Part shown: in pieces, positions 10,143 to 31,670 of the stretch
Layout: every line of letters starts with the position of its first letter
Position numbering within the stretch: the stretch's first letter is position 1
Made by a program: the position numbers and the translations under genes
Assembly (NCBI GenBank): GCA_029959195.1
Contig: CP114124.1
Span: 372,001-436,000 of the forward strand
DNA length: 64,000 nucleotides
Direction of reading: 5' to 3'
DNA from: Dictyophora rubrovolvata
Lineage: Eukaryota > Basidiomycota > Agaricomycetes > Phallales > Phallaceae
The notes under the pieces: model-generated
What the model was told of the DNA's origin: nothing
Seen by the model: the letters and a program-made list of their open reading frames with translations, nothing else
Database searches by the model: none

Positions 10143-10549
10143 TGTCAGAGTACACTAGTGTCGTCCCCTTCTTCTCTTCTGTTTATTTTCAGTTCTTATC
10201 TATTTTATTCATTTCTATATTTCTCATATTTTATCCCATCTCTTGCTTTCCCCTTTCCTTCCATATTCCTATTCTTCCCTTCAATGGGCGCTGAGCACCC
10301 GTTCCCATCAGTGCCATGGTCTAGGCCCCGGCTAAAGGTCTGGGACCGACATATATCCATGCCCAGTCCATGAACCAAGGGTTGTGTATGACCTTCACCA
10401 TTTTTCATAGTATATAGTTAGTAGCCCTAAAAGAGGGATCTCTAAGTTTGTTCTCTTAGGATACCCTCCCTCTAGGTGAGTTAGTTAGTATTTATCCAAT
10501 ACAGTTACTTAGGATCCCCTCCCTCTAGTCTGAGTGAGTAGTCTTGACA
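10143..10549 (+). repeat. LTR-B family, full-length solo LTR
   Basis: Begins TGTCAGAGTACACTAG and ends AGTCTTGACA, giving TG...CA ends. The flanks TTCAC (10138-10142) and TTTAC (10550-10554) look like a 5-bp target duplication with one C-to-T change. It shares the terminal hairpin architecture of LTR-A but differs in its middle, which has the GGTCTGGGACCGAC and CAGTCCATGAACCAAGG words found in other LTR-B copies at 17935 and 31054. Confidence 0.75.
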
Positions 10550-16544: not shown

Positions 16545-16780
16545 CTCACTATGTCCTCCAACTTCAAAGAAAGGGGTAGTAAGATTCTAGACCTTGATGC
16601 CAGAAATGAAGCAATAGAAATAGTAAAAATTACAGCAATTACTGCTAAACCAAAACCACAGTGGGCTCACATTACACACTGCCTAATAAATGCTAGTGCC
16701 GCAAATAAAATTAGACACAATGACAATGGTGTTACTGAAAATTTCTTCCTGAAAACTTGGCATGCAAAGGATATACCCTG
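16545..16780 (+). mobile_element. LINE (Tad-like) ORF2 fragment
   Basis: A short open segment reads LDARNEAIEIVKITAITAKPKPQWAHI...ENFFLKTWH. This resembles the region between endonuclease and reverse transcriptase of basidiomycete LINEs (LDARNEA..., NPFIQTW). It has no start or end of its own and abuts the small-protein copy at 16781, so it is a fragment. The 255 bp before it (16291-16544) hold nothing I recognise. Confidence 0.55.
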
Positions 16781-17041
16781 TAGATAAGCCACAAGTTTGT
16801 ATGAATGTCCTTTTACTCTGATATAATATTGGTCATATAAATGGAGTATTGGCGGTAACCTTAAATTATCATAGTAGAGTGTATTCTGGATGTACCCGTC
16901 ATGAAAGGGTAGCAAGGTTTCTTCATCAACATCAATTAGTCCTTTTTGACAGAGGACATATTCTCGTATGACAGTTTTGAAGTTGCCATGTGGGCAATGG
17001 GATGATGACATGGAGTAGGAGGCTGTGAGGTTGATCATCAT
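16781..17041 (-). pseudogene. Small-protein family SPF, b-type copy (partial)
   Basis: The minus-strand frame reads REYVLCQKGLIDVDEETLLPF, then TLYYDNLRL, LHLYDQYYIRVKG and YKLVAYLQG. It aligns with the b-type copy at 20056-20634 (EIDVDPSTMLP, IPYDDLEI, LTLYERTNVNV, YEFVEFLST). The C-terminal third is lost where the LINE fragment begins, and no certain start exists (ATG at 17041 is possible). It lies downstream of the a-type copy at 17221-17817 on the same strand, mirroring the a-then-b order at 19318-20634. Function unknown. Confidence 0.6.
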
Positions 17042-17220
17042 AGTAACAAATGGATAGAGTAAGGCTGAAGAAACTTAGAACTCCAAAACAAGAAGAGACC
17101 AGATAATTAAAATAGAAGTATGTCAGTATTCGTTCTTTTTGTTCATTATTATGTTCCAAAACTGATCAGACTCGTTCTAGGAATCCAGAACAAACATGTC
17201 AAAGTGTGCATATTGTTTGT

Positions 17221-17817
17221 TGATATCAAGGAGGGTGTATTGTTAATTCGGAAGAAGTCGGGGATTGGGGAGGTGAATTGTTATTAGATGATGAGTTTGT
17301 TGGTTCTTTTAGAAGGGGATTGGCAGGTCGATAGAATCCTAAGACCAGTTGATGATTGCATGATGATAAAATCCATCAACTGGGAATGTCCAGGACCATT
17401 ATCATGTATTCTAACCCAACTTGTGTCATTAACTAGAAACAGTATGAATCTTGTAGAGCTGATTCTGGTGTAGAATAAACATGAGTAACTGTAAACCATC
17501 TTAATTCCTTCTCTATTGTAGACTTCTCTTCCAAATGCCAAGAAGGGGTGTATGATATCTGAACTTCAACATTTATAGATATTTCGGGGAACCTTATGTG
17601 AGTAGACTGGAAGTAGAGTCGCGGGGTCAATTTGGAGGATAGGTGTTGGTGAATAATAAGTGAATAAAGTAGTCTTGATATCCAGATCATGAGTATGAGG
17701 ACTATCATGAGTATAACGAAATAACAGAGGGATAACATCTTGGGGAGATTCTTGGGTGTCTGGGGAAGAAGTAGGGTGTTTGATTGTAAGCGTAGAGGAG
17801 AGATGAAGATTGAACAT
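17221..17817 (-). pseudogene. Small-protein family SPF, a-type copy, decayed
   Basis: Homologous to the open a-type gene at 19318-19950: HDLDIKTTLF, LQIDPATLLP, EKELRWFTVTHVYSTPESALQDSY, LMTQVGLEYMIMVLDIPS and FYRPANPLL match YDLDLHTTLY, LDIDEETYLP, EERLDWFTIINVYSTPESAVKDSY, LVTQEGFEFTFLVLDVPS and PYRPANLVP. The copy has a frame change in the middle and at least two in-frame stops, so it is not a working gene. It starts at the ATG at 17817 and the similarity ends near 17221. It is not recognised as any known family. Confidence 0.7.
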
Positions 17818-17934
17818 TTTATTGTTATCTGAATGAGGGAATTTGGGTAAGTTGGTAGTTGGTTTTCTTGAAAGGGAGGATTTGAATGTCTGCTTTGGAT
17901 AAGCAACCCAATCACCAAATGGGGAAGGTTTTGG

Positions 17935-18027
17935 TGTGTGACACCATTCCCATCAGAGCCATGGCCTAGGCCCCAGCTAAAGTCCGGGACCAGCCTGTAT
18001 CTGCACCCAGTCCATGAACCAAGGGTC
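17935..18027 (+). repeat. LTR-B family, internal fragment
   Basis: About 90 bp matching the middle of LTR-B (CCCATCAGAGCCATGGCC, GGGACCAGCC, CAGTCCATGAACCAAGGG). Neither LTR end is present. A nearby pair of short words (TGTGTGACACC at about 17936, TGTGACACCACTT at about 18083) may belong to a further decayed element. 18028-18289 holds nothing else I recognise. Confidence 0.55.
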
Positions 18028-18289
18028 ACACACTGTAATGGTTTGGATTATTAATAAGGCCCTAGGTTTGGTGCATGTCACAGTGTGACACCACTTGTAG
18101 AGTGGTGTGACTTTTTTGTTTTTTTTTTTAGTTGAGTTAATGGCTACAGACAAATAATTTACCTCTCCAGCTACAGCTTGTGTTTATGGAGTTAAAACCA
18201 TAATAAAGAAAAGAATATAAAAGTATTCATAAAGGCATATTATAATAGAGTGAGCCAACTGGAGAAAATGCTTTTATACATAGAATGTG

Positions 18290-19190
18290 GAGCTTGATAG
18301 GTTAATACCCATTAAAAACTCCCTAATCTCACTCTTTGCTGGGAAATGGGTCTGGGAGAGGTCAAGGATGGGTCTCCATGTATAGCAGACTTTGATGTAG
18401 TTTGTGTGTTTTTTGGGAAAGAGCAAGGAGTTAGATGCTATGAAGTTATAGTGTATTCTTCTACATATGGTGTCTCTCCATTTTATGATTTCTTTTCCAG
18501 CTGGTTTCTTTTCTGGCACTCAATGGTTTTTCCAGCTTAGATAAGCGCTCTCTGTCGAGATTATACACTTTATTCTTTCTTTTTGATCTGGATTTTGTCC
18601 ATCCTTCTCAAAGTGGGGTTAGAGGAGATGTTACTGCTGAGGATGGTATCTAGTGCATTCTCACATATGGTGGTATCTGCTTTTTGCAGGAGGTTTTCAG
18701 TGAGTTTCCATATTATATCTTGTTCATTTTCTGTGCACTGAGAGAGGCAGTGATCCATTGACATTGCAGACACATTGCTCTCTCTGCCATATTAGGAATT
18801 TGTAGCCAGTTTTTACTGATTCTATGGACACTGTGTATGGATTTCCATAGGAAGGAACTTCTTTGCTTAGGTCCTGGGACTTTATGCTTCTCCAGATGGT
18901 TTCATTTGTTGGGACTATTTTGTTGGTGTTGGATAAGACTTACTGTATTCTGTTTAGATTATCTGATGTAGTCTCTAATTGTTTTTTTCCTGCTTGCTAT
19001 GATGGTTTTGTATGCTCTTGATTGAGTGACTGATGCTAACATCATACCAGTTAGGGCTACACTCAGATCTATCTGTAGATTCACTTTGTCTACAATATCT
19101 CTCTGCACCAATAACAGCTAGAGTGTCAGCCCCTTTATTTCCTTGGACACCACTGTGTCCTTTCACTTTGGTGAAGATGGTTTTCACTGT
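18290..19190 (-). mobile_element. LINE (Tad-like) fragment: RNase H end and C-terminal zinc-binding region
   Basis: Minus-strand pieces: FTKVKGHSGVQGNKGADTLAVIGAERY, the end of a LINE RNase H domain, then SSFLWKSIHSVHRISKNW, NMAERAMC and MDHCLSQCTENEQDIIWKLTENLL, the zinc-binding region that follows RNase H in fungal LINEs. Several stops and frame changes separate the pieces. The 5' part with endonuclease and RT is absent, as in a typical 5'-truncated LINE insertion. No poly-A tract was identified. Confidence 0.7.
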
Positions 19191-19317
19191 GCGTTGTCGC
19201 GCACCAAAATCTTCCTAATAAGGAAATGTTCCGATTTTTGGTTCAAAGCGGAGTTTCAAACTACCAAAAACTTAACCGATACACCACAGCTTCTCGAAAT
19301 CAAAACCCTTATGAAAA

Positions 19318-19950
19318 ATGGCCGCATGTTCATTTCACTATACATCATCAATCTCTTTGCCCATTCCAGCATCTCCCACCGAGTCATTACCCCCCTCTGA
19401 CGATGAATCTATATCACCTTTTCGTTTTTCGCCTTCCAGTCCAAGGACATACGATTTGGATCTGCATACGACTCTTTATATCTATAGTTCCCAATATGCG
19501 AGTCTCGACATCGACGAAGAAACGTACCTCCCGAAGTTCCCTCCACCTCTTATTATTCGTCAATGCAGAAGTTCGGATTTGGTTCACCCCAGTCTCATGT
19601 TTGGAGAAAAGGTTTATATCGAGGAACGATTAGACTGGTTTACAATTATCAACGTTTATTCTACACCCGAATCAGCCGTTAAAGACTCATATCGGATTTG
19701 GTTAGTGACACAAGAAGGGTTCGAATTTACATTCCTGGTTCTAGATGTGCCAAGTTGTTGGGTTGTCATGAAAAACATAAAAACGCAAAAACATAGCCCA
19801 TATAGACCAGCCAATCTTGTTCCTGTAGATCCTCAAATGTCTCGTTTTTCACCCCATTCGCCAGAACCAATATCTCTCCCCTCTTCTCCATCCAAACGAT
19901 CCTTCCAAAAGATCCGACGTGTTTGCTCAAACCTTCTTGGACAAAATTAG
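19318..19950 (+). CDS. Small-protein family SPF, a-type, intact single-exon gene
   Basis: Encodes 210 aa with no family I recognise. A Ser/Pro/Thr-rich N-terminus (about residues 10-50) is followed by a conserved core: YDLDLHTTLYIY, LDIDEETYLPKF, EKVYIEERLDWFTIINVYSTPES, SYRIWLVTQEGFEFTFLVLDVPS (about residues 45-155). A basic Ser/Pro-rich tail ends RSFQKIRRVCSNLL. There is no signal peptide or membrane helix. The start is the ATG at 19318; an overlapping ATG at 19311 opens a different, short frame. Related copies lie at 17221, 16781, 20056, 22245 and 31461, so this is a locally multiplied family. It is AT-balanced and retains CpG, unlike neighbouring fossils. It could be a host orphan gene or cargo of a mobile element. 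Confidence 0.65.
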   Translation: MAACSFHYTSSISLPIPASPTESLPPSDDESISPFRFSPSSPRTYDLDLHTTLYIYSSQYASLDIDEETYLPKFPPPLIIRQCRSSDLVHPSLMFGEKVYIEERLDWFTIINVYSTPESAVKDSYRIWLVTQEGFEFTFLVLDVPSCWVVMKNIKTQKHSPYRPANLVPVDPQMSRFSPHSPEPISLPSSPSKRSFQKIRRVCSNLLGQN

Positions 19951-20055
19951 GACAAAAGGCTTGATTAGGATAAGCGATTAGATTTGTATTTCATCTCCTT
20001 CTTTCTTTTTGGACATTTCATTAGCACTTAAAAATTTTGGTTAACTCATATCATC

Positions 20056-20634
20056 ATGTAGGACAATAACGATACTCCTACTTCCCCTATTCCCCTTTTT
20101 CAACTCCCTTTCTTCCCTTTTGAATATCGTTCTTCTCTCAGATTCGGACCCAACCCTAATTTCCTCTCACAACTTCGCGTTTACAATACTCTTGTTTCTG
20201 AAATTGATGTCGACCCCTCCACAATGCTTCCGATTACTCCACAGCCACTAATGGAGATTACTATTCCTTATGACGATCTGGAGATAGGATATCCACGAGC
20301 TTTAACCCTGTACGAACGAACCAACGTCAATGTCATGGACGAATCGTATGAGTTTGTTGAGTTCCTTTCAACAAATCGTCAAGAAGAATCAATCTGGAGA
20401 CTGGTCTTTCATCATCAATTTCGAAGTTATACTCAATTCTTATTCATAGACACACCCCTATCTGCCATCCCATCCCCTCCCGACTACTCTGTTGGAAATC
20501 AAACCCTCCCTTCCTATTCCGATCTCCAATCCAATCTCGTTCAAGATCTGGTATTGTTAAGCGTTGCCATAGCCATTATTATTGCGCCACAGCCACGAAG
20601 AAGAAGATCTCGTCAACAAGAACCAGATCAGTAA
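20056..20634 (+). CDS. Small-protein family SPF, b-type (start uncertain)
   Basis: The frame is open from 20062 to the stop at 20632-20634. Core blocks LRVYNTLVSEIDVDPSTMLP, IPYDDLEIGYP, LTLYERTNVNVMDESYEFVEFLST and SIWRLVFHHQFRSYTQFLFIDTP match the a-type core. A hydrophobic stretch LVLLSVAIAIIIAP followed by RRRR near the C-terminus could anchor the protein in a membrane. The natural ATG at 20056 is followed directly by TAG. So either an intron ends at that TAG with an upstream first exon I could not find, or translation starts at the ATG at 20224 (136 aa), or the gene has lost its start. Lies about 100 bp after the a-type gene. Function unknown. Confidence 0.5.
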
Positions 20635-20896
20635 GAAGTTTGGGATGGTAAGATTATAGTTTTGGGTAAGAGGTAGCGCGAGAAGTGCCAGATGGTGATT
20701 TTGGTAAAGCTATGCTGGGAATCCGGTTTCATCGTCTTCTTTTGATCTCTTTTTGTTTCTCTTTTGTTTCTCTTTTTGTTTCAACATATTTCTCCTATTC
20801 CCCCTAACCACATATGTGATTCCCCTTTTTTTTAATTGTATCCTCCATTGTTTTCTCCTTTTTCTTTTGTTTCTTTGTTCTCTTTTTGTTTCCTTT

Positions 20897-21459
20897 TGTT
20901 ATCATGATGAATGACGAGTGATCATTCCGCTTTCCTTTATGTTTCCAAACGGTATAAATACTGCATGTAAATACATGTAACAGCAGCAATCTACCGGAAC
21001 GGTTGTCTCAAGTTTAGTTCAGTTTAAGTCAAGCTCAAGTCAAGTTTCGTCTCTAGTCTATTTCTATGCTCACGTCTATTTCTTTGGATTACTCTGAGTG
21101 AGGCCTCGGAGTATAAACTCAACGATTTGTATTGTCGTTGAAGCCTTACTAACTTTAAAACAGATTATCATCGCTGTATTATCGACGGCGTATTGACTCA
21201 CCATTTTTATCGCAACTCACATTTATCGTCCCCCTCACACACACACGATCTTAGGATCATCATTTTTTTGTTGTTATTGGTTTTATATCAATGCACACAC
21301 ACTCACTAAATATCATATTATTCCCCCACCCTCCTCCTTACAAAATCAGCACCAGGACCCGCTCCACGGAGACTAGACAGCCTCAAACAAAATATCTTCG
21401 TAGTTTTTCCGATTGTATATATAGCTACAACATTTAGCTATTATCTTCGGATCGTTACA
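20897..21459 (+). repeat. LTR-like repeat C, copy 1
   Basis: 563 bp from TGTTATCATG to TCGGATCGTTACA, so TG...CA ended, with a TATA box (GGTATAAATA, about 20951) in the middle as in a retroelement LTR. It is repeated at 22703-23285 in the same orientation. No target duplication is visible (flanks CCTTT and GCGTA). It lies about 260 bp after the b-type gene in both copies, so the block gene-plus-repeat was probably duplicated together. Confidence 0.55.
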
Positions 21460-22244
21460 GCGTATTCTTAGGTTGGCTGTTAATGGGATGAGTAGGTTTG
21501 TATTTTAGATTGTTGGTCTATCACATATATTGGGAATCTATCAGGATGGTCAATGGGGGTGTTTTGAACAAAGTATAGTATTGCTTATATGCCACTTATC
21601 TGATATTTTTATTTCTTTCATTGTTTTTGCCATATCCCAGCACCAACTTTGATGTTTAGGTGGCCATTTGGCAGGAGCCATCTGTATAAGCTTATACTAG
21701 GATGACAGGTCTGATTTGTGGGTGAGTCACAGTGGTATGTTTGGGTGGAAGGTTGTTTGCTTGTAAAAATTCAGTATGTTTACTCAATTCCTGTGGTTTT
21801 GTTTATAGGGTTGAATTGATGAGATTTTTGATTACTCTCTAGGTTTACTGTAGTGGAGTTTGATAGGGCCCAGGTATGAAGTAAGAGGTTGGGTGTTACA
21901 GATTCCATTTAGGGGGAATTTTGGCTAATAGATTTTGTGCTGCTCTAGACTATGTGGAGTTTTACAACTGGTTTGTTTAAGGTCTCTCTACATGTTGGGC
22001 ATCTGTACTTGTTTGTATGTTTGTGCGAGCACACAAAGACTTTTGTAATAGGTTGCCTGTCAATGACACTCTGTGGGTGTTTCTTAAGCAGGTGAATTCT
22101 TTCCTATTCCAGGCTATTTTTTGATTCATTAGGCCTATGGTGGTACGAGACTGGCATATCCTTGCATGTCTCTACACTTATATTAAGGCCATCGACTAAA
22201 GTTATATTTTTTGGCTACTTTAAGCATTTAATGGATGGTGGGAT
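21460..22244. other. Spacer between two C repeats, unrecognised
   Basis: No gene supported. The minus strand near 21950-22080 reads HTNKYRCPTCRETLNKPVVKLH, which resembles a zinc-finger fragment (C-x2-C...H), but the frame is broken on both sides and I cannot assign it to a family. Confidence 0.35.
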
Positions 22245-22451
22245 GAGATGCATCAGGATGGACAGCTATCATGGCAACTCATCTTCCAACAATCTGTGCT
22301 TTTAGCCAGACAAGTTCTTTTCCTTGATGCCTCTTTAGATGTATTTCCATACCCTCCCAGTTTCTATTCCAATCCTCCCAATCCCCTAATACCATCCCCT
22401 CTCTACAAAGCAACAAATTCAGTAACATTTTACTTGCTGACAAGTAGATGA
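22245..22451 (+). pseudogene. Small-protein family SPF, b-type C-terminal fragment
   Basis: The frame reads LSWQLIFQQSVLLARQVLFLDASLDVFPYPPSFYS and ends in YLLTSR and a stop. It matches SIWRLVFHHQFRSYTQFLFIDTPLSAIPSPPDYS of the copy at 20056-20634. The first two thirds of the gene are missing. It is followed at about 250 bp by the second C repeat, as the full copy is followed by the first. Confidence 0.6.
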
Positions 22452-22702
22452 CCTCGACCAATGGAAGAAGAGGATGTACGACTCATAAAGAGGAGAAGAG
22501 TAAGAGATTAGGAAAATAGAGGAATCATCGCTGTGGCAGTATAGTGTGAAAATGGTAGAAAGGAGAGTATTGCTTTTCTTCCAAATTGGGACTGTTTGTG
22601 TTTGTTGTACTTCTATTTCCTCCTTAACATTCCTCATCACTTATTGTTCTTCTCTCCAATTGTAACCCTCCCTCCCTTTTTCTTCCTTTCCTTCCCTCTT
22701 AT

Positions 22703-23285
22703 TGTTTCATGAAAAAGGTTTACAATTCTTTATTGTTAAAACTCCTAAAATTTCCAAAAATATTTCTTTTGTTCAGAACGGTATAAATAAATACATGTAA
22801 CAGCAGCAATCTACCAGAATGGTTGTCTCACAGTTTAGTCTAAGTTCAAGTCAAGTTTCATCTCTAGTCTTTTTCTACACTCATATCTTTGTCTTTGGAT
22901 TACTCTGAGTGAGGTCTCGGAGTATAAACTCAATGATTCGTATTATTGTTGAAGCCTTATTAACTTTTAAACAGATTTCTATCACTGTTTTATCGACAGC
23001 AACACATTTATTGTCACTTCATTGTTTCACATATATCATCCCCCTCGCATACGCACACCCAGTCTTAGTATCATTGTTGTTGTTGTGTTTGTTGTTGTAG
23101 TTGAATCAACATTGACACATACACTCCCTCACCACTATATCCTATTTTATTCCCCCACCCTCCTCTTATGAAATCAGCACCAGGACCCACTCCACAGAGA
23201 CTAGATGACCTCAATCAAATATCTTTGTAGTTTTCCAATCATATATTTAGCTACGACATTTAGCTATTATCTTCGGATCGTTACA
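22703..23285 (+). repeat. LTR-like repeat C, copy 2
   Basis: 583 bp matching 20897-21459 in the same direction: TGTTTCATGA start, GGTATAAATA, CAGCAGCAATCTACC, GGATTACTCTGAGTGAGG, CAGCACCAGGACCC, and the end TCGGATCGTTACA. Divergence is mostly C/T and G/A changes. The flanks do not form a target duplication with each other or with copy 1. Confidence 0.6.
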
Positions 23286-23444: not shown

Positions 23445-26316
23445 GGCAGGCTCTGAGGGATTTGACACTCTCCTACAGATTCTGACACTCTCCAGATTCC
23501 TGTTTTTACTGAGCCAGCTGGTGATGCACAAGGGCAGGAGCTAAGCAGAGAGCTTCAGGGAATCAGTGAATGTGTATCTCACTCAAAAACAAAGGGGGAG
23601 CCAAAAGCTAATCTTATTCTAGTATAAAGAGAATTTTATATACATAAGTCTCTAATGCAAATTCGGAGTTTTAGTATTTGAAAGATGGGAAGGATTTGTG
23701 GGGTCATGGGAAAGCTGTGTCAGCACTTGGGAATGGGGACAGAGATGTGTGGAAAATAAAGAGTTTCTGAATTATAATAAAAATGAACTCATTGAAAGAT
23801 TCTCCTTGTAAGCTGTCATAATCCTCAACACCGGTGATTGAGTTGACTTTACCTGGGCAAAGGTGAATTCACTTCTTCAGGGCACCATTTGATGACATGC
23901 ACCCACTTCCAGGCCATGTAACAGAGATCAGTTCAATGGGCTTGGTGACAGGAATCTTAGGCAATTGGCTTGTGATGTGTATTGTTTCAGTGGCAGAATT
24001 TACATCCATTAGAAATTCTGCCAGTCTAAGGTTTGGTGATATTGGGTAGGAAAGGTATGTGGGAATCTGAGATGTCTCCTCAAATGATTCTCCAGATATC
24101 TGCATTGGAGTGAGGGGATGTCTGAATGCAATGAAGTTTTGCCACCCTATTTAGGTGGCATTCTGGTGAACTCTTCATCTTTGCTGTGACATATATATCC
24201 TATGACTCATGCCATCCTTTTGATTTTGATTGTCTATCTCACATTGGTAAGTCTTACATGAACATAAAATAGAGACTCTTACCACTATATTGAAATAATT
24301 TGATTTAGCCAGAGTACTTGTAATGTTTCCATTAAACAAATGGGCCACCAGCCTCAAGTATAACTAGTTACATCGGTACTTGTCTGACATATAATAAAAG
24401 TAAATATTTTTTAAAATTTGAGAGTGACAGCACTGGTCAAGGTAGAATCTGAATTCATAACATTACTAGCAATAAAGATTTGCAAGCACTATCTATCCTT
24501 TATCCTATTGTATTTTATCATTAATGCAATGTTGTCTTATCAACATTGTATCACAGATGTCTCACCAGGCTTCAATGCCATTTCATGAAGATGGACACTG
24601 GCCTGACATGGCATCTGTAATAAGCATGTCTGCAATCAGAAAGTCAGGTATCATGTGTCCAATACCATCTATGATCAATGACAGGTAGTTTGACTGGTAA
24701 TCCCATAAGGTTTGAGGTCTGTATCCTGAACTCTTCTAATCTGAGCAGATAGAGATCTTCAATTGATGACATGGGAGCCTTGATAAATTCACAAAAACTA
24801 TGTGAAGAAAGAAGGTTTGGGTGAAGATGCCAGTGATATTAGATGTGAATGAACCTTCCTTTCTTGGAATTAGAGAGTGGGATAATTGTGGTTGTTGAAC
24901 ATACTTTAGGTCTCTCTGGGCAATTTCCAGCTGTCACAGTACACTAAGCAGCACTCAGTGGTGTTTTAGTTTGATCCACATTTTCCTCAATCTCTCTGAG
25001 TTCTTTGAACTTGTCATTGTAGGATACTGGATGATAAGTCCCTTTGAACAGGATAATATAAGCCGTTAAGTGTTGTTATCGTGTCAACGCTTATTGGCAA
25101 GATACTCTAGGATCTTCTAGTATCCTTAGGTAAGCACATCCATCAGCAACCCTGTCCGATTGAATCATTCAACAATTTTCACTCATTAAACTCAGTCAGC
25201 ATTGGCGGATAGCATGCTGAACATAATGGTAAGAAGATTTATTGAATATTTGTTAAGATTTTTATCCAAAAATTCACCTGCAATTCCTTAGTCCTAGTGC
25301 CGCTACTAACAAGCTACCACTACCCTTGCTCAATAGCTGTGTTTGACATTCAATGACTTTAACAGTCTTTCCTTGAGGCATTCACATTCACATTCAATCG
25401 CAATCTAGCTATTGTAAACAACGTTTCAATTGTGTGACAGTAGCAATGAATTGTAATCTGGTGTGTTTTTCATCTGTTGATTGGCTTGTTCAGTTTTTAT
25501 TTATTGAAGATTTCAGTAGTTTTACTTTATTTGTTAGATTGATTATTGCATTTTGAAAAGCAATATTATATATATATATTTCAATCAGAATGATACTTTC
25601 ATTCCCAAGCGCATTGGACGTTAAGCTTACCGTCAGCTGAGAGTTGACCTTGTGCAAGCTTATTTTCTTATTTCTGGCAGTCTTATCATCTTGTGCTATT
25701 TCTTCTTATTTCTCTTAAATCATAAGTTTACTATTATCTTAATCCACTTATTAAACTGCGAGCACTGATGTTTTTCCCATTCTACGCTAAGAAATTATAC
25801 CATCGCTGGGTAGCTGGATGACCGACACATGTATTTCTGGGTTGGCAACCATACTGAATGTGAGTCTTGTGTTTTAATTATATTTTTTCCCTGAGATCTT
25901 AAACTGTCCTTCCCTCATATAGTGTCACTCATGTCCGTCTAGTCAAGATGCTCCTTTCACTCTGCATCTACAACCTGGTATGTAGTGTTTATTCTGTCTC
26001 TCATATCCAACATTCTAAGTTTCTTTTCAGATGTTTTTTTCAGAAGGAAATTTTCTCTTTTTACTTGGGGCTAGCTAGGTATGTTTCATCTTTCATCATA
26101 AATCGCTGTGACTAATGTTGTTGAAGCATAGAAATTTTTTTAACCAGTCGGCAGTACAGCCTGTGTAATTACAGTTTTTTTTTTACAATACAAGATCCAA
26201 AATTCCAGACGGAGGACACAAATTTTTAGGGCCTGAGGCATCATCAACACATCATGCTGCCAACAGGTGCAATTTTCAATCGGCGAGCAGAAATTTTTTC
26301 CCATTGTCTCAGTTTC
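23445..26316. other. Long AT-rich stretch, no gene recognised
   Basis: Several short frames are open, the best on the minus strand at 23869-24105 (SQIPTYLSYPISPNLRLAEFLMD), but none has a recognisable family or splice-consistent extension. At about 24936 the sequence TGTCACAGTACACTAAGCAG resembles the start of LTR-A but does not continue. 25560-25590 is a short TA run. The part from about 25100 to 26316 may belong to the element carrying the tyrosine recombinase, but I cannot define its edge. Confidence 0.4.
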
Positions 26317-28514
26317 ATGCCCCCTGCTCCCAGAAAAAAAAAGACACCCAAAGCATCATTAACAGGTTCCTTGACTGTTGGTGAGCTTGAGTATGTGAAG
26401 CAGGTGTCGAAGAAAAAACATGGCACTGCAACCAAAACTGCTGCCAGCTATAATAGATACATTCAGCGTGGGAAGCAGTGGCTGGCTGATCTCATTGCTG
26501 GTATCAGAAATGGCAACACCTTCGAATGTCCACGTGGTAGTCTCGAAAGCAGTCTGCAGACTTCATGGAAGTGGACTTCTACTGATTTAGCTCATGCATT
26601 CAATGAGACACCTACACGAGCCTCACCTTGGGCACTTGCAAGCTTTATTACCTTCAAGTGTTTTAAAGAAAACCTTGGAGCTTCTACTGCTGATGGCATA
26701 CAGGCTGCTTTCAAAAAATATTGGGATAATGTGTATGTCTTTATTAAATTCTAATATTTCACTCTATTCCAATATTTTTCTCAGAGATACAGAAGGCATC
26801 TACAGAGGAGAATGGAAGTGGGATGAAGAAAGGGGAAGAAGTTTTGGCAATCCGGCATGCTCTGTTGATGTAATGGACACTGTACATGCTGTCAAGAAGA
26901 AGCATGGTGCGGAAAATCAGCGGTCTCACTCAACGGCAATGTCTTTTAACATGCTTCAACACATTTACAACTGGTCTCTTTTATTTATTCCCTCAAAACT
27001 AATTTTACCCGACATACTCTCTTTGACAAGTGAAGACCGGCTGCTGCTTCATAAGCAGCTTGGATGGCGTGCATTCTCTTCGTTCAGCTGGACTTTATGG
27101 ATGAGGTGAGTTATATTATTATTTCACTTTTCTTAATTTTTTCTCATTGATTTCAGAAATTTTGAAACTTTGAAAATGCAGTGTCAGCACCTTGTTTTCA
27201 GCTGTGTCACAAATGACAAGTTCAAGCTTTCTCACTGGAAAGTCTCACTTGAGCAACGCAAAAATTGGCAGAATAAATTGGGTAAGGAGCAAGAGCTCCA
27301 TGGACATTTGTATGAAATCTATCCCCGATCAGAACTTCCTGCTGCTGATTTGGATTTTCACATGTGCAATTGGATCTCTTACCTGGAACATGTATATGGA
27401 AGGGCACTGGTACCGACTGACTGGATATTCCCATCTATTGGCAGCAATGGGATCATTCAGCAACACATCCCAATGTCACATGATACCATTCAGAGGTGGA
27501 TCGATGAATTCGCCAAAGGTGCGGGTATTGATTCTTCAGAAGTCCGGTTGACAACACACTGCTTCCGGCACGGGGGGGCTCAATACCAGTTCATGTACGC
27601 ACCTGTTGGCAAGCAATGGACATTGGCAACCATTCGCTGGTGGGGAGGCTGGGCAGAAGGGGAGCATGTGAGTGAATTTATTTTTCATTTCTCATGCAAC
27701 GAAAAAATTAATTTAAAATACATAGCGCGACACACTCATCCGGTATCTACTAGATGAGCTTCACTACTATGAAGAAGGTCATGGCAATGCATTGAGGCCT
27801 ATTCCAACGGAAGCTCATTTATCCTTTATGGGTGAACATCGTGAAATTCAGCCAGTTACATTAGTGGATATGAAATCTATATTTACATCAATCGAGGAAG
27901 TTATCACCACCAGGGTTACTGCAGCCATCTCAAATATTCTACATGATGACAGCTGCTTTTCAGACATCCTTAATATTTTACAGGCACAGCTGGTTACCAA
28001 CGGTACTGGAAACCTCAAATCCATCATCTGGCAAGGTGAGCACAGGGCCATGCGTATAGCACCTCTTGAGCCTGTGGCTGCTTCTCCATTACCTGCTGGA
28101 CAGAACACTGGCTTACCTCCGGGTCTCTATGTATCCAACATCTCACATTCTATCCCTCCTGCAGAGTGGTGGAAAGCTTATGTTGAACAGTGGGACTCAG
28201 GCAATGGCTGTTGTATTGCACTGAAAAATTGGGAGCCTAGTTGGATGAAACACCCAGCCTTTGCTAACAAGTATTATCAGCGGAAACTTGTTGCACTGGA
28301 ATTTGAACAGTGAGTCCCTTTTTATTTTTATTTGTCTATCCATTAGACTTCTTCTGTCAGTCATGGGCGAGACGAACGACTCTTCCTCCAATGCTACCCA
28401 GAAGCCGCAAATGGGACCACACCTCTCTTGCAAAAGATTCGCAACGCCCAATTTGCTCGAGGTGAATCTAAGCCGCGCCAAAGGAAAAACTCAATAAATT
28501 CACACATAGTTTGA
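26317..28514 (+). CDS. Tyrosine recombinase (Crypton-like DNA transposon enzyme), five exons
   Basis: Tyrosine recombinases cut and rejoin DNA through a covalent 3'-phosphotyrosine. Exons 26317-26732, 26785-27105, 27157-27667, 27726-28309 and 28361-28514 join in frame (all GT-AG) to about 661 codons without a stop. Box I Arg is in WTLWMRNFETLKM, formed across the second intron. Box II is TTHCFRHGGAQ (H-x-x-R). The third-box region is IRWWGGWAEGE, and the nucleophile candidate is Tyr in DTLIRYLLDE just after the third intron. A basic N-terminus (PPAPRKKKTPK) may be a nuclear signal. The C-terminus reads LFLQCYPEAANGTTPLLQKI, a block I associate with multicopy basidiomycete recombinase-like proteins. 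The ATG at 26317 was preferred to 26254 because the basic N-terminus starts there. No terminal repeats were found, as expected for Cryptons. It is intact, in contrast to surrounding elements. Confidence 0.7.
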
Positions 28515-30074
28515 TAGAAAACAAAATCATATAATCATATATATCAACTTTACCCAACGGTTACAGATTTTCTACAAATTAAAGAGCATTCTGGTAGTGG
28601 CGGCAATGGTGGTATGGGCAGTGAGAGACCTGGCTGTGATCAAACTGATGAAAAAAATAGAACATCTGAAAGATATAAAGTGAAAACATATGCACAAAAG
28701 AAAATGGAATGAAAAGGACGCACAATTCAAGTCCAACTCAAGCAACAGGAGCATTTGCTACATGAGTTCAATCATCTTTGGTGAAACTAGTGGACGGTAG
28801 ATTTTTGACATGGGCACAACAGAGTTTTGACGGGTAACTAGATGGTGAGGCGAAAATGGTGGTGAGGGTGCTTGGGTGAGGATGTATATGGGATGGCGCG
28901 GGTGGACGACTTCAGTGGTGTACTGGAACAAGCCAGTCCTGTTACTTGTGCAAACCACGGATCGGATTTCTTTCACTCACCTGTACCATATTAACCCAAT
29001 CACAACAAAAGGGTGTAGGAACTGTCAAATCAATCCTCCTAACAAGCAAGAAAAGGTGGGAGGGTCCTGTTTGCCTGAGAAACAACGTTGAATACCACAG
29101 GCTAGTAAGGAAGCAAAAAAATCACACATGAAAACGGCGCTGGAGCGAGCCTTTGAATCTTCCTAGCAAATGGGGCGGGGGTGACTGGTGCTGCTGATGA
29201 TGGGATGGATAGTGCTGGTCCTCCTGATTTCCCGGTTCCAGGGTCAGACAGGAAATGGAAATGATGATAAAGGGAAAAATAATAATAATTTTTATCTTAC
29301 TTACCTGCTTGGATTGATTCAAAAGACAGAAACCTAAACGATGACGACAAGGATAGATAGATATTGGGAGAGGGAAAGATGTGCACGCATGCGATTATGC
29401 AAGCAGACGCCTGTTCGAGCACCGTGTGCGGGAGAGTTTGAGGGAATCGACCAATGGGAACATGGGAATGAGCTTAGGTCAGCTGTATCTGGCACTATCC
29501 GGGACCAATCTCTTATATTTGGCGACATAAGTGATGGTAACAGCATGGTCCAGCAATACAAGAGAAAATAAAGAAGGGGATGAGGGCGATCTTCTCCAGC
29601 AGAGTGGGTCCTTGGTGTTGCTAAAAGTAAAAGAGAATCCAAAATATGTCAGTAGAATGATGATAAAAATAGTTGGATAAGAGGGGATAAAACAAAAGTC
29701 AGTAAGTGAGAGGTTAAACTTGTAGTTTATACTCCAATGTGGTCAGAGTGAAAGTGGTGAGAATTTTAGGGAGAAAATAGAAGTACCAAATAAACACAAA
29801 CAGTCCAAAAATGGAAAGGAAAAGGTAGTACTCTTACCATTTGGCACTGCACTGCCACAGCAATGATTCCTCTACTCTTCTCCTCTTAGTCCTTTTCTTC
29901 TGTTTGGTGATCAAGGTTGTCTACTTGTTGGCAAATAAAATGTTAGTGAATTGGTTGCTTCATAGACCATGATGATTGATCTTGCTGCATTTAACCTTCC
30001 ATAACAGGTACATCCAAAACACACTCTACTATGATGATCTAAGGTTACCGGTCTCTGCATGAACTGTCAGAAAT
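28515..30074. other. Spacer, no gene recognised
   Basis: Open frames overlap on both strands and none resembles a known family. It includes moderately GC-rich patches near 28860-29220 and 29390-29530 that might be remnants of a gene, without a readable product. Confidence 0.4.
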
Positions 30075-31053: not shown

Positions 31054-31460
31054 TGTCAGGGTATGCTAGTGTCATCCCTTTCGTTTCTTCTGTTTATCTT
31101 CGATTTCTATCTATTTTATTTATTTCCACATTTCTTGTATTTTATCCTACTCCTTGTCTTCCCCTTTCCTTCTGCATTCCCATTTTTCCCTTCGACAGGC
31201 ACTGAGCACCTGTTCCCATCAGCACCATAGCCTAGGCCCCAGCTAAAAGTCTGGGACCAGTGCATATCCGCACCCAGTCCATGAACCAAGGACCGTGTAC
31301 AACCTTCGCCATTTTTCATAGTATATAGTTAGTAGCCCTAGAGGAGGGAACCCTAAGTTTGTTCTCTTAGGATCCCCTCCCTCTAGGTGAGTTAGTATTT
31401 TTCCCAAAATATAATTCTCTTAGGATCTCCTCCCTCTAGTCTGAGTGAGTAGCCCTGACA
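31054..31460 (+). repeat. LTR-B family, full-length copy
   Basis: Begins TGTCAGGGTATGCTAG and ends AGTAGCCCTGACA, 407 bp, the same length as the copy at 10143. It carries the left hairpin arm (CCCTAGAGGAGGGAACCC) and two right arms (about 31374 and 31425). The flanks ATGTC and AAATC do not match, so its target duplication is lost or the ends were rearranged. It cuts off the small-protein copy at 31461. Confidence 0.75.
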
Positions 31461-31670
31461 AAATCATCATACAACAATTTGATTTCTAATGAGGGCACAA
31501 GCGTAAAGGGTAACATGGTTTCAAAGTTGATGGCAATTTCATTACTAAGGATGTTGTAGGTCTGAACATGAATGGTGAAATTTTCATTGGGTCGAGATTG
31601 AGGAACAGGAGAAAAGGAAAATGGAAAGAAAGGGAAATGAAGAAGTGGGAGGAGCCTGAGAGACATTACT
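31461..31670 (-). pseudogene. Small-protein family SPF, b-type N-terminal fragment
   Basis: The minus-strand frame reads LLPLLHFPFFPFSFS, NENFTIHVQTYNILSNEIAINFETMLPF and SLEIKLLYDDFV, matching IPLFQLPFFPFEYR, NPNFLSQLRVYNTLVSEIDVDPSTMLPI and LMEITIPYDDLE of the copy at 20056-20634. It begins near an ATG at 31666 that follows GATTAG, similar to the ATCATGTAG before the 20056 copy. It stops where LTR-B begins. Confidence 0.65.

Follow-up and report, generated by a model that had tools for sequence, protein, structure and literature searches.

In mouse mammary tumor virus (MMTV), the U3 part of a long terminal repeat (LTR) carries a protein gene, Sag/Naf (excerpted report, PMC9412291). A separate promoter in U3 has been reported for MMTV. 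Among fungi, the crapaud LTRs of Podospora form subfamilies that vary in U3 and are conserved in R and U5, for which template switching has been proposed as the source; full copies of crapaud exist, and the excerpted part of that study reports no protein genes in U3 (PMC10787394). The LTRs of fission yeasts have recombined near the U3-R boundary, a breakpoint ascribed to minus-strand transfer, and in one species no full-length retrotransposon was found; their target duplications are 5 bp long, and the excerpted account mentions no U3 genes (PMC10085805). Bdelloid LTR retrotransposons carry extra, exchangeable genes, including an ORF3 besides gag and pol, a location of which in the LTR is not mentioned in the sections available (PMC5408684). 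Ginger1 elements, in the part of their description used here, have TGTNR ends, CG-centred 4-bp duplications of the CCGG/CCGT type, long terminal inverted repeats and an integrase-like transposase (PMC2836005). Here we describe an LTR-like element with two related protein genes, in open reading frames (ORFs) a and b, from a 64,000-nucleotide stretch of the fungus Dictyophora rubrovolvata (GCA_029959195.1, contig CP114124.1, positions 372,001 to 436,000, forward strand), hereafter the window. The window copy is probably a solo LTR from a Ty3/Gypsy-like lineage of LTR retrotransposons, with a long U3 that houses two or three paralogous accessory genes.

So read, the locus shares with MMTV a protein gene in the U3 of a long LTR, with crapaud a variable U3 joined to conserved R and U5, with fission yeast LTRs a history of recombination near U3-R and, in the case of one of those species, the failure to find a full-length element, and with the bdelloid elements genes that are additional and exchangeable. 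Unlike MMTV, it is no animal retrovirus, its a and b proteins have no significant match to a known protein, its genes are paralogs two or three in number, and only single LTR-like units have been found. The likeness to Ginger1 lies in the TGTNR ends and the CG-centred 4-bp duplications, which here are of a wider type, NCGN; neither long terminal inverted repeats nor an integrase-like transposase was seen in the units. Literature searches on this point led to MMTV and to LTR elements with an additional ORF; among the open-access papers that they listed, subscription journals aside, no case appeared of protein genes in the U3 of a fungal or any other LTR retrotransposon.

The window contains one complete element, of the family that we call X, with the following parts.

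19191..19194, no strand: left copy of the 4-base target duplication GCGT, from the flank comparison of delimited copies
19195..21459, plus strand: entire LTR-like element of family X (2,265 bp), with boundaries common to the fetched copies
19318..19950, plus strand: ORF a, 210 codons, open, from ORF reading and between-family selection
20056..20634, plus strand: ORF b, 192 codons, with TAG as codon 2 in the window copy, from ORF reading and between-family selection
20953..20960, plus strand: TATA box TATAAATA, pointing outward, from the alignment of eight representatives
20976..21459, plus strand: R-U5-like segment lacking long ORFs, over which X (L012) and Z (L038) have 97-98% identity by 60-bp windows
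21460..21463, no strand: right copy of the target duplication GCGT, from the same flank comparison

The element starts with TGTCGCGCACC at 19195 and ends with GATCGTTACA at 21459, so that its ends read TGT...ACA, in keeping with the TG...CA termini of LTRs; by eye, its two 11-base termini match at 7 positions. Both ORFs lie within this single unit, and the open ORF a and the ORF b body stand where the sequence-only reading of this DNA had placed them. Two further claims of that reading, an unrecognized protein family in two related forms and a fixed order of the two genes, are likewise borne out. The element is inserted in a remnant resembling a long interspersed nuclear element (LINE), itself within the inverted segment described below; the minus-strand translations beside it contain YTDGSC in one flank and TKVKGHSGVQGNKGADTLA in the opposite flank, which we take to be RNase H motifs.

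The element is scattered genome-wide. A search with the DNA of ORF a scored the best 40 of 87 candidates, and these matches, the window copy excluded, are 97-98% identical; one unit is common to the window and the 15 regions fetched around such matches. The start and end signatures of family X have 77 and 105 genome matches, respectively, at up to 3 mismatches, and reversed-pattern controls for both have none. A divergent a-type query and a b query gave at least 151 matches (best 150 of 176 candidates scored) and at least 150 (best 150 of 184), numbers that count matches rather than copies, as some genes account for several rows. The copies read belong to several families of one anatomy (ORF a, ORF b, an outward TATA box, 0.4-0.5 kb without genes, and NCGN flanks): X, Y1 and Y2 (loci L028-L033), Z (most of L034-L046), and W (L041, C1:2143500-2146700). 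The W element, whose 5′ end is not delimited, has three ORFs: an a, an additional b-type gene, and a b resembling that of X. Protein identity across X, Y, and Z is 29-47% for a and 28-36% for b.

All 22 copies delimited at both ends, that is, with both ends found by pattern in the fetched loci, are single units of 2,184-2,420 bp. This set omits four of the 17 X copies: L005, where the locus ends early, L010 and L022, whose 3′ ends are altered, and L020, a start variant outside the pattern with TCGG/TCGG flanks by eye. The 4-base flanks are identical in 16 of the 22 and compatible in 19 if C to T or G to A changes at the central CG are allowed, as compared with means of 1.7 and 2.9 and maxima of 8 and 11 over 20,000 shufflings of the flank pairing. 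At 60 further 3′ ends, flank positions 2-3 read CG in 33, TG in 13, CA in 11, and something else in 3. The target of the elements is NCGN.

At a matching place in all eight aligned representatives there is a TATA element (TATAAATA in six, TATATATA in one, and TATAAGTA in one), accompanied in all eight by the motif TGTAA(C/T)AGCAGCA; both lie 406-510 bp from the 3′ end in the seven representatives measured. Identity profiles in 60-bp windows anchored at this motif change abruptly there. For X (L012) and Z (L038), each of eight downstream windows gives 97-98% identity and the upstream windows give 27-65%; against a second Z copy (L035), the same X copy gives 88-97% downstream and again 27-65% upstream; and Y1 (L029) compared with W gives 83-95% and 33-53%. 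Between Y1 and Y2 the pattern is reversed, with 63-87% in seven of eight upstream windows and 0-75% downstream, where indels contribute. These profiles indicate that the families are joined to common R-U5-like ends in different combinations. A copy at C1:875543, with an X-type start and, from coordinates alone, an apparent Y2-type end at 877719, appears to be another such combination; the pattern behind that end gave 43 matches, as against 9 in its control. An identity step at the TATA/R position is expected from minus-strand transfer between co-packaged RNAs, and a U3-R boundary at the TATA box would place ORFs a and b in U3.

The Z/W pair of a genes differs at 26, 18, and 67 sites in codon positions 1, 2, and 3, with a ratio of nonsynonymous to synonymous change (Ka/Ks) of 0.13, and the X/W pair of b genes at 45, 26, and 83, with a ratio of 0.16. 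Ka/Ks was finite in 16 of 19 pairs, the other three being saturated; it ranged over 0.13-0.44 in pairs that span two families and over 0.28-0.50 in pairs from Z or X alone. The value of 0.50 belongs to a Z pair of b genes (L040/L039) in which L039 enters unrelated sequence after about codon 120. In wrong frames, seven pairs gave 0.49-1.48. When changes were redistributed at random, the observed ratio was reached in none of 500 simulations for seven of eight pairs and in 2 of 500 for the Y1/Y2 pair of a genes. As the pairs were picked among open copies, stop counts are biased, codon positions less so. Both ORFs are under purifying selection between families. Within family X, no third-position excess exists at the variable sites of 17 copies (by codon position, a has 11/9/12 informative sites and 11/8/11 singletons, and b has 10/7/11 and 18/8/6), and codon periodicity within this family was rejected as proof of selection. 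The dN/dS comparison proposed in the sequence-only reading has given a divided answer, purifying selection between families and none discernible in codon positions within X. Together, the two results indicate that both proteins mattered during spread and that inserted copies decay.

The profiles of a and b align with an expectation value (E) of 2.1e-4 and a probability of 46%. AlphaFold2 models have a mean confidence score (pLDDT) of 61 for a (10 sequences) and 64 for b (7 sequences), and their cores, about residues 45-152 and 29-144, mostly score 70-92 by blocks of ten. Each predicted core consists of two strands, a short helix, and then four more strands, and one six-strand core is thereby predicted for both proteins. 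Neither protein has a significant match in Pfam, among PDB sequences (best E 0.95), or in a Foldseek search of the PDB (best E 0.065 and 0.079); a has none in PHROGs, and b none among viral structures (best E 0.012). A match to a known transposon protein, the outcome that the sequence-only reading had set against its own proposal, did not emerge at significance for a or b in the libraries searched. Weak fold matches such as Tsi3 and EagT6 were rejected (E of at least 0.065, TM-score to query about 0.2), as were relatives of a in viral contigs, where none of 44 pattern matches was confirmed. From the alignments, a has a Ser/Pro-rich N-terminal arm, and there are basic tails, features from which a nuclear role might be guessed.

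The interpretation of the unit as a solo LTR draws on the TGT...ACA ends with 4-base flanks, the TATA element in eight of eight representatives, the identity step, the selection between families, the MMTV precedent, and the last 14 bases of X, which agree at 12 of 14 places with the LTR end of one resident Gypsy element. The Ty3/Gypsy-like label derives from the termini and the 4-bp duplication. Several observations weigh against this interpretation. None of the 85 inspected 3′ ends (81 flanks, 60 new and 21 earlier, plus four Y2 ends) enters a common internal region, and in this sample of the assembly no parent with two such LTRs, gag-pol, a primer site, and a polypurine tract was found. The resident Gypsy resembles X in its termini only, and by eye its own flanks gave no matching duplication. 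No common TGG primer site lies within 8 bases of the 3′ end; the 14 TGG matches fall at 12 places, and we read them as target duplications or chance. The a-type genes within 12 kb of 70 Gypsy RNase H matches favor neither a strand nor a side, 18 lying downstream and 15 upstream on the same strand and 18 and 23, respectively, on the opposite strand (149 of 151 a-type and 70 of 81 RNase H matches were used, split or weak rows being left out). The identity step itself is less clean for X/W and X/Y1, with one downstream window at 0.48 and X/W identity upstream mostly 0.63-0.83. Because the parent search covered a sample, membership in an LTR retrotransposon lineage is likely and, without a parent, unproven.

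Sequence common to 3′ flanks probably belongs to other repeats that the elements entered, often in differing register or orientation; five pairs in exact register (L066/L089, L065/L067, L068/L078, L017/L062, L028/L075) can be read as one target site used repeatedly, and the four further Y2 ends have NCGN-like flanks followed by unshared sequence. LTR pairs at a suitable distance were chosen by eye from match lists, and two were fetched: L024 and L025, rejected as full-length elements, hold other repeats and gene-like sequence between their LTRs and no gag-pol in the element's own register. The Gypsy in L010 was rejected as a parent, having its own LTRs of about 600 bp, an adjoining Y copy, and an X copy in its gag. 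In L030, an apparent LTR followed by gag proved to be an LTR lodged within the beginning of a gag gene, which runs on upstream without a break in L008, L011, L014, L021, and L110. One RNase H match of the 70, at C8:734844, is flanked left and right by a genes on its own strand, but of differing families, and none of 24 Copia matches, compared with the a list by eye, has a genes of the same family on both sides.

The absence of a parent and of an association with Gypsy or Copia leaves room for an unlikely reading in which the 2.2-2.9 kb unit is itself the mobile element, stand-alone and non-autonomous, bearing its own two or three genes and mobilized in trans by the integrase of a resident Gypsy. 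It accords with the lack of a parent among the 85 inspected 3′ ends, with copies 96-98% alike, with the single state of all 22 delimited copies, and with ORFs selected between families. By itself, however, it leaves unexplained the outward promoter common to families and the exchange point at TATA/R, and fungal lineages without full-length copies are known, as in S. octosporus (according to the excerpted account, PMC10085805). It may also be put, with the same rather low probability, as an element class in its own right: a single LTR-like unit with an R-U5-like end, an outward promoter, and two or three genes in its U3-like part, which would propagate singly with the borrowed integrase or reverse transcriptase of a resident Gypsy and swap its cassette at U3-R.

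Far less probable is a DNA transposon that is non-autonomous and depends on a Ginger-like transposase derived from an integrase. The TGTNR-type ends and CG-centred 4-bp duplications are like those of Ginger1, but the inverted repeats of Ginger1 span about 40-270 bp (PMC2836005, as excerpted), as compared with 7 of 11 terminal bases, by eye, here. Nearly all of the 61 integrase H2C2 matches, moreover, adjoin Gypsy RNase H matches by eye, C8:775861 and C11:821552 being the exceptions. The option of a lineage-specific host gene, which the sequence-only reading had placed beside cargo of a mobile element and under which repeats would have captured or duplicated a and b, scarcely seems credible: the purifying selection between families would suit it, but each gene has at least 150 matches, the copies delimited at both ends form bounded elements, with identical 4-base flanks in 16 of 22 and compatible flanks in 19, and no third-position excess is seen within X. 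The cargo option of that reading is supported.

Under the favored solo-LTR interpretation, the genomic RNA of the parent would start in R of the 5′ LTR and run through gag-pol into the 3′ LTR, placing a and b near its 3′ end, the position of MMTV sag, and their proteins would act as accessory factors of the element. Co-packaged RNAs would swap U3 gene cassettes at the first strand transfer, the two long LTRs would recombine with loss of the internal part, and the single copies that remain would decay neutrally. The two-protein module in the U3-like part is real, selected, and apparently undescribed, and paralogous versions of it with two or three genes, under purifying selection, recur in several families. 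If this is true, LTR debris may disperse selected protein genes in about 100 or more copies that would be hidden by repeat masking, and U3 exchange at strand transfer becomes open to study with coding sequence.

The sequence-only reading had explained the oppositely oriented gene copies around the X element as an inverted duplication of a two-gene cassette. That explanation is rejected: alignment of a Z representative shows a single Z element that an inversion of about 5.47 kb has cut in two.

16778..22245, no strand: segment whose inferred inversion divided the Z element, from the alignment and the joined flanks
16778..17943, minus strand: 5′ half of the split Z element, its positions 1-1166
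16778..17038, minus strand: first half of b of the split Z element
17221..17817, minus strand: decayed a of the split Z element
22246..23285, plus strand: 3′ half (positions 1165-2204) of the same Z element, with the second half of b to 22508 and then the R-U5-like segment
29761..30050: two small family Z fragments, 29965-29761 on the minus and 29991-30050 on the plus strand, by Z alignment
31463..31651, minus strand: b-like fragment, 43% identical over 63 codons, by alignment

The outer flanks of the split element are ATGG and ACAG; once they are joined, 31 rows from fetched loci show an alignment that spans the junction.

A repeat of about 410 bp (window 10143-10549 and 31054-31460) occurs in many fetched loci and is a frequent insertion target of the elements. 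Several insertions (L010, L011, L014, L029, L030) sit in gag or pol of unrelated Gypsy elements, for which targeting and CpG availability are candidate causes. On C1, positions 875543-900261 hold mirror-image signatures (875543+/900235-, 877701+/898085-, 883307+/892471-, 886056+/889722-), found in part with the pattern whose control count is given above; they may mark either a large palindrome or an assembly artefact. The H2C2 match at C8:775861-776019 lies in a 456-codon open frame with no Gypsy RNase H match listed nearby. Within the window, 26254-27757 holds ORFs of a possible tyrosine recombinase, of which 27170-27757 matches Pfam Phage_integrase at E 0.0013, below the family cut-off.

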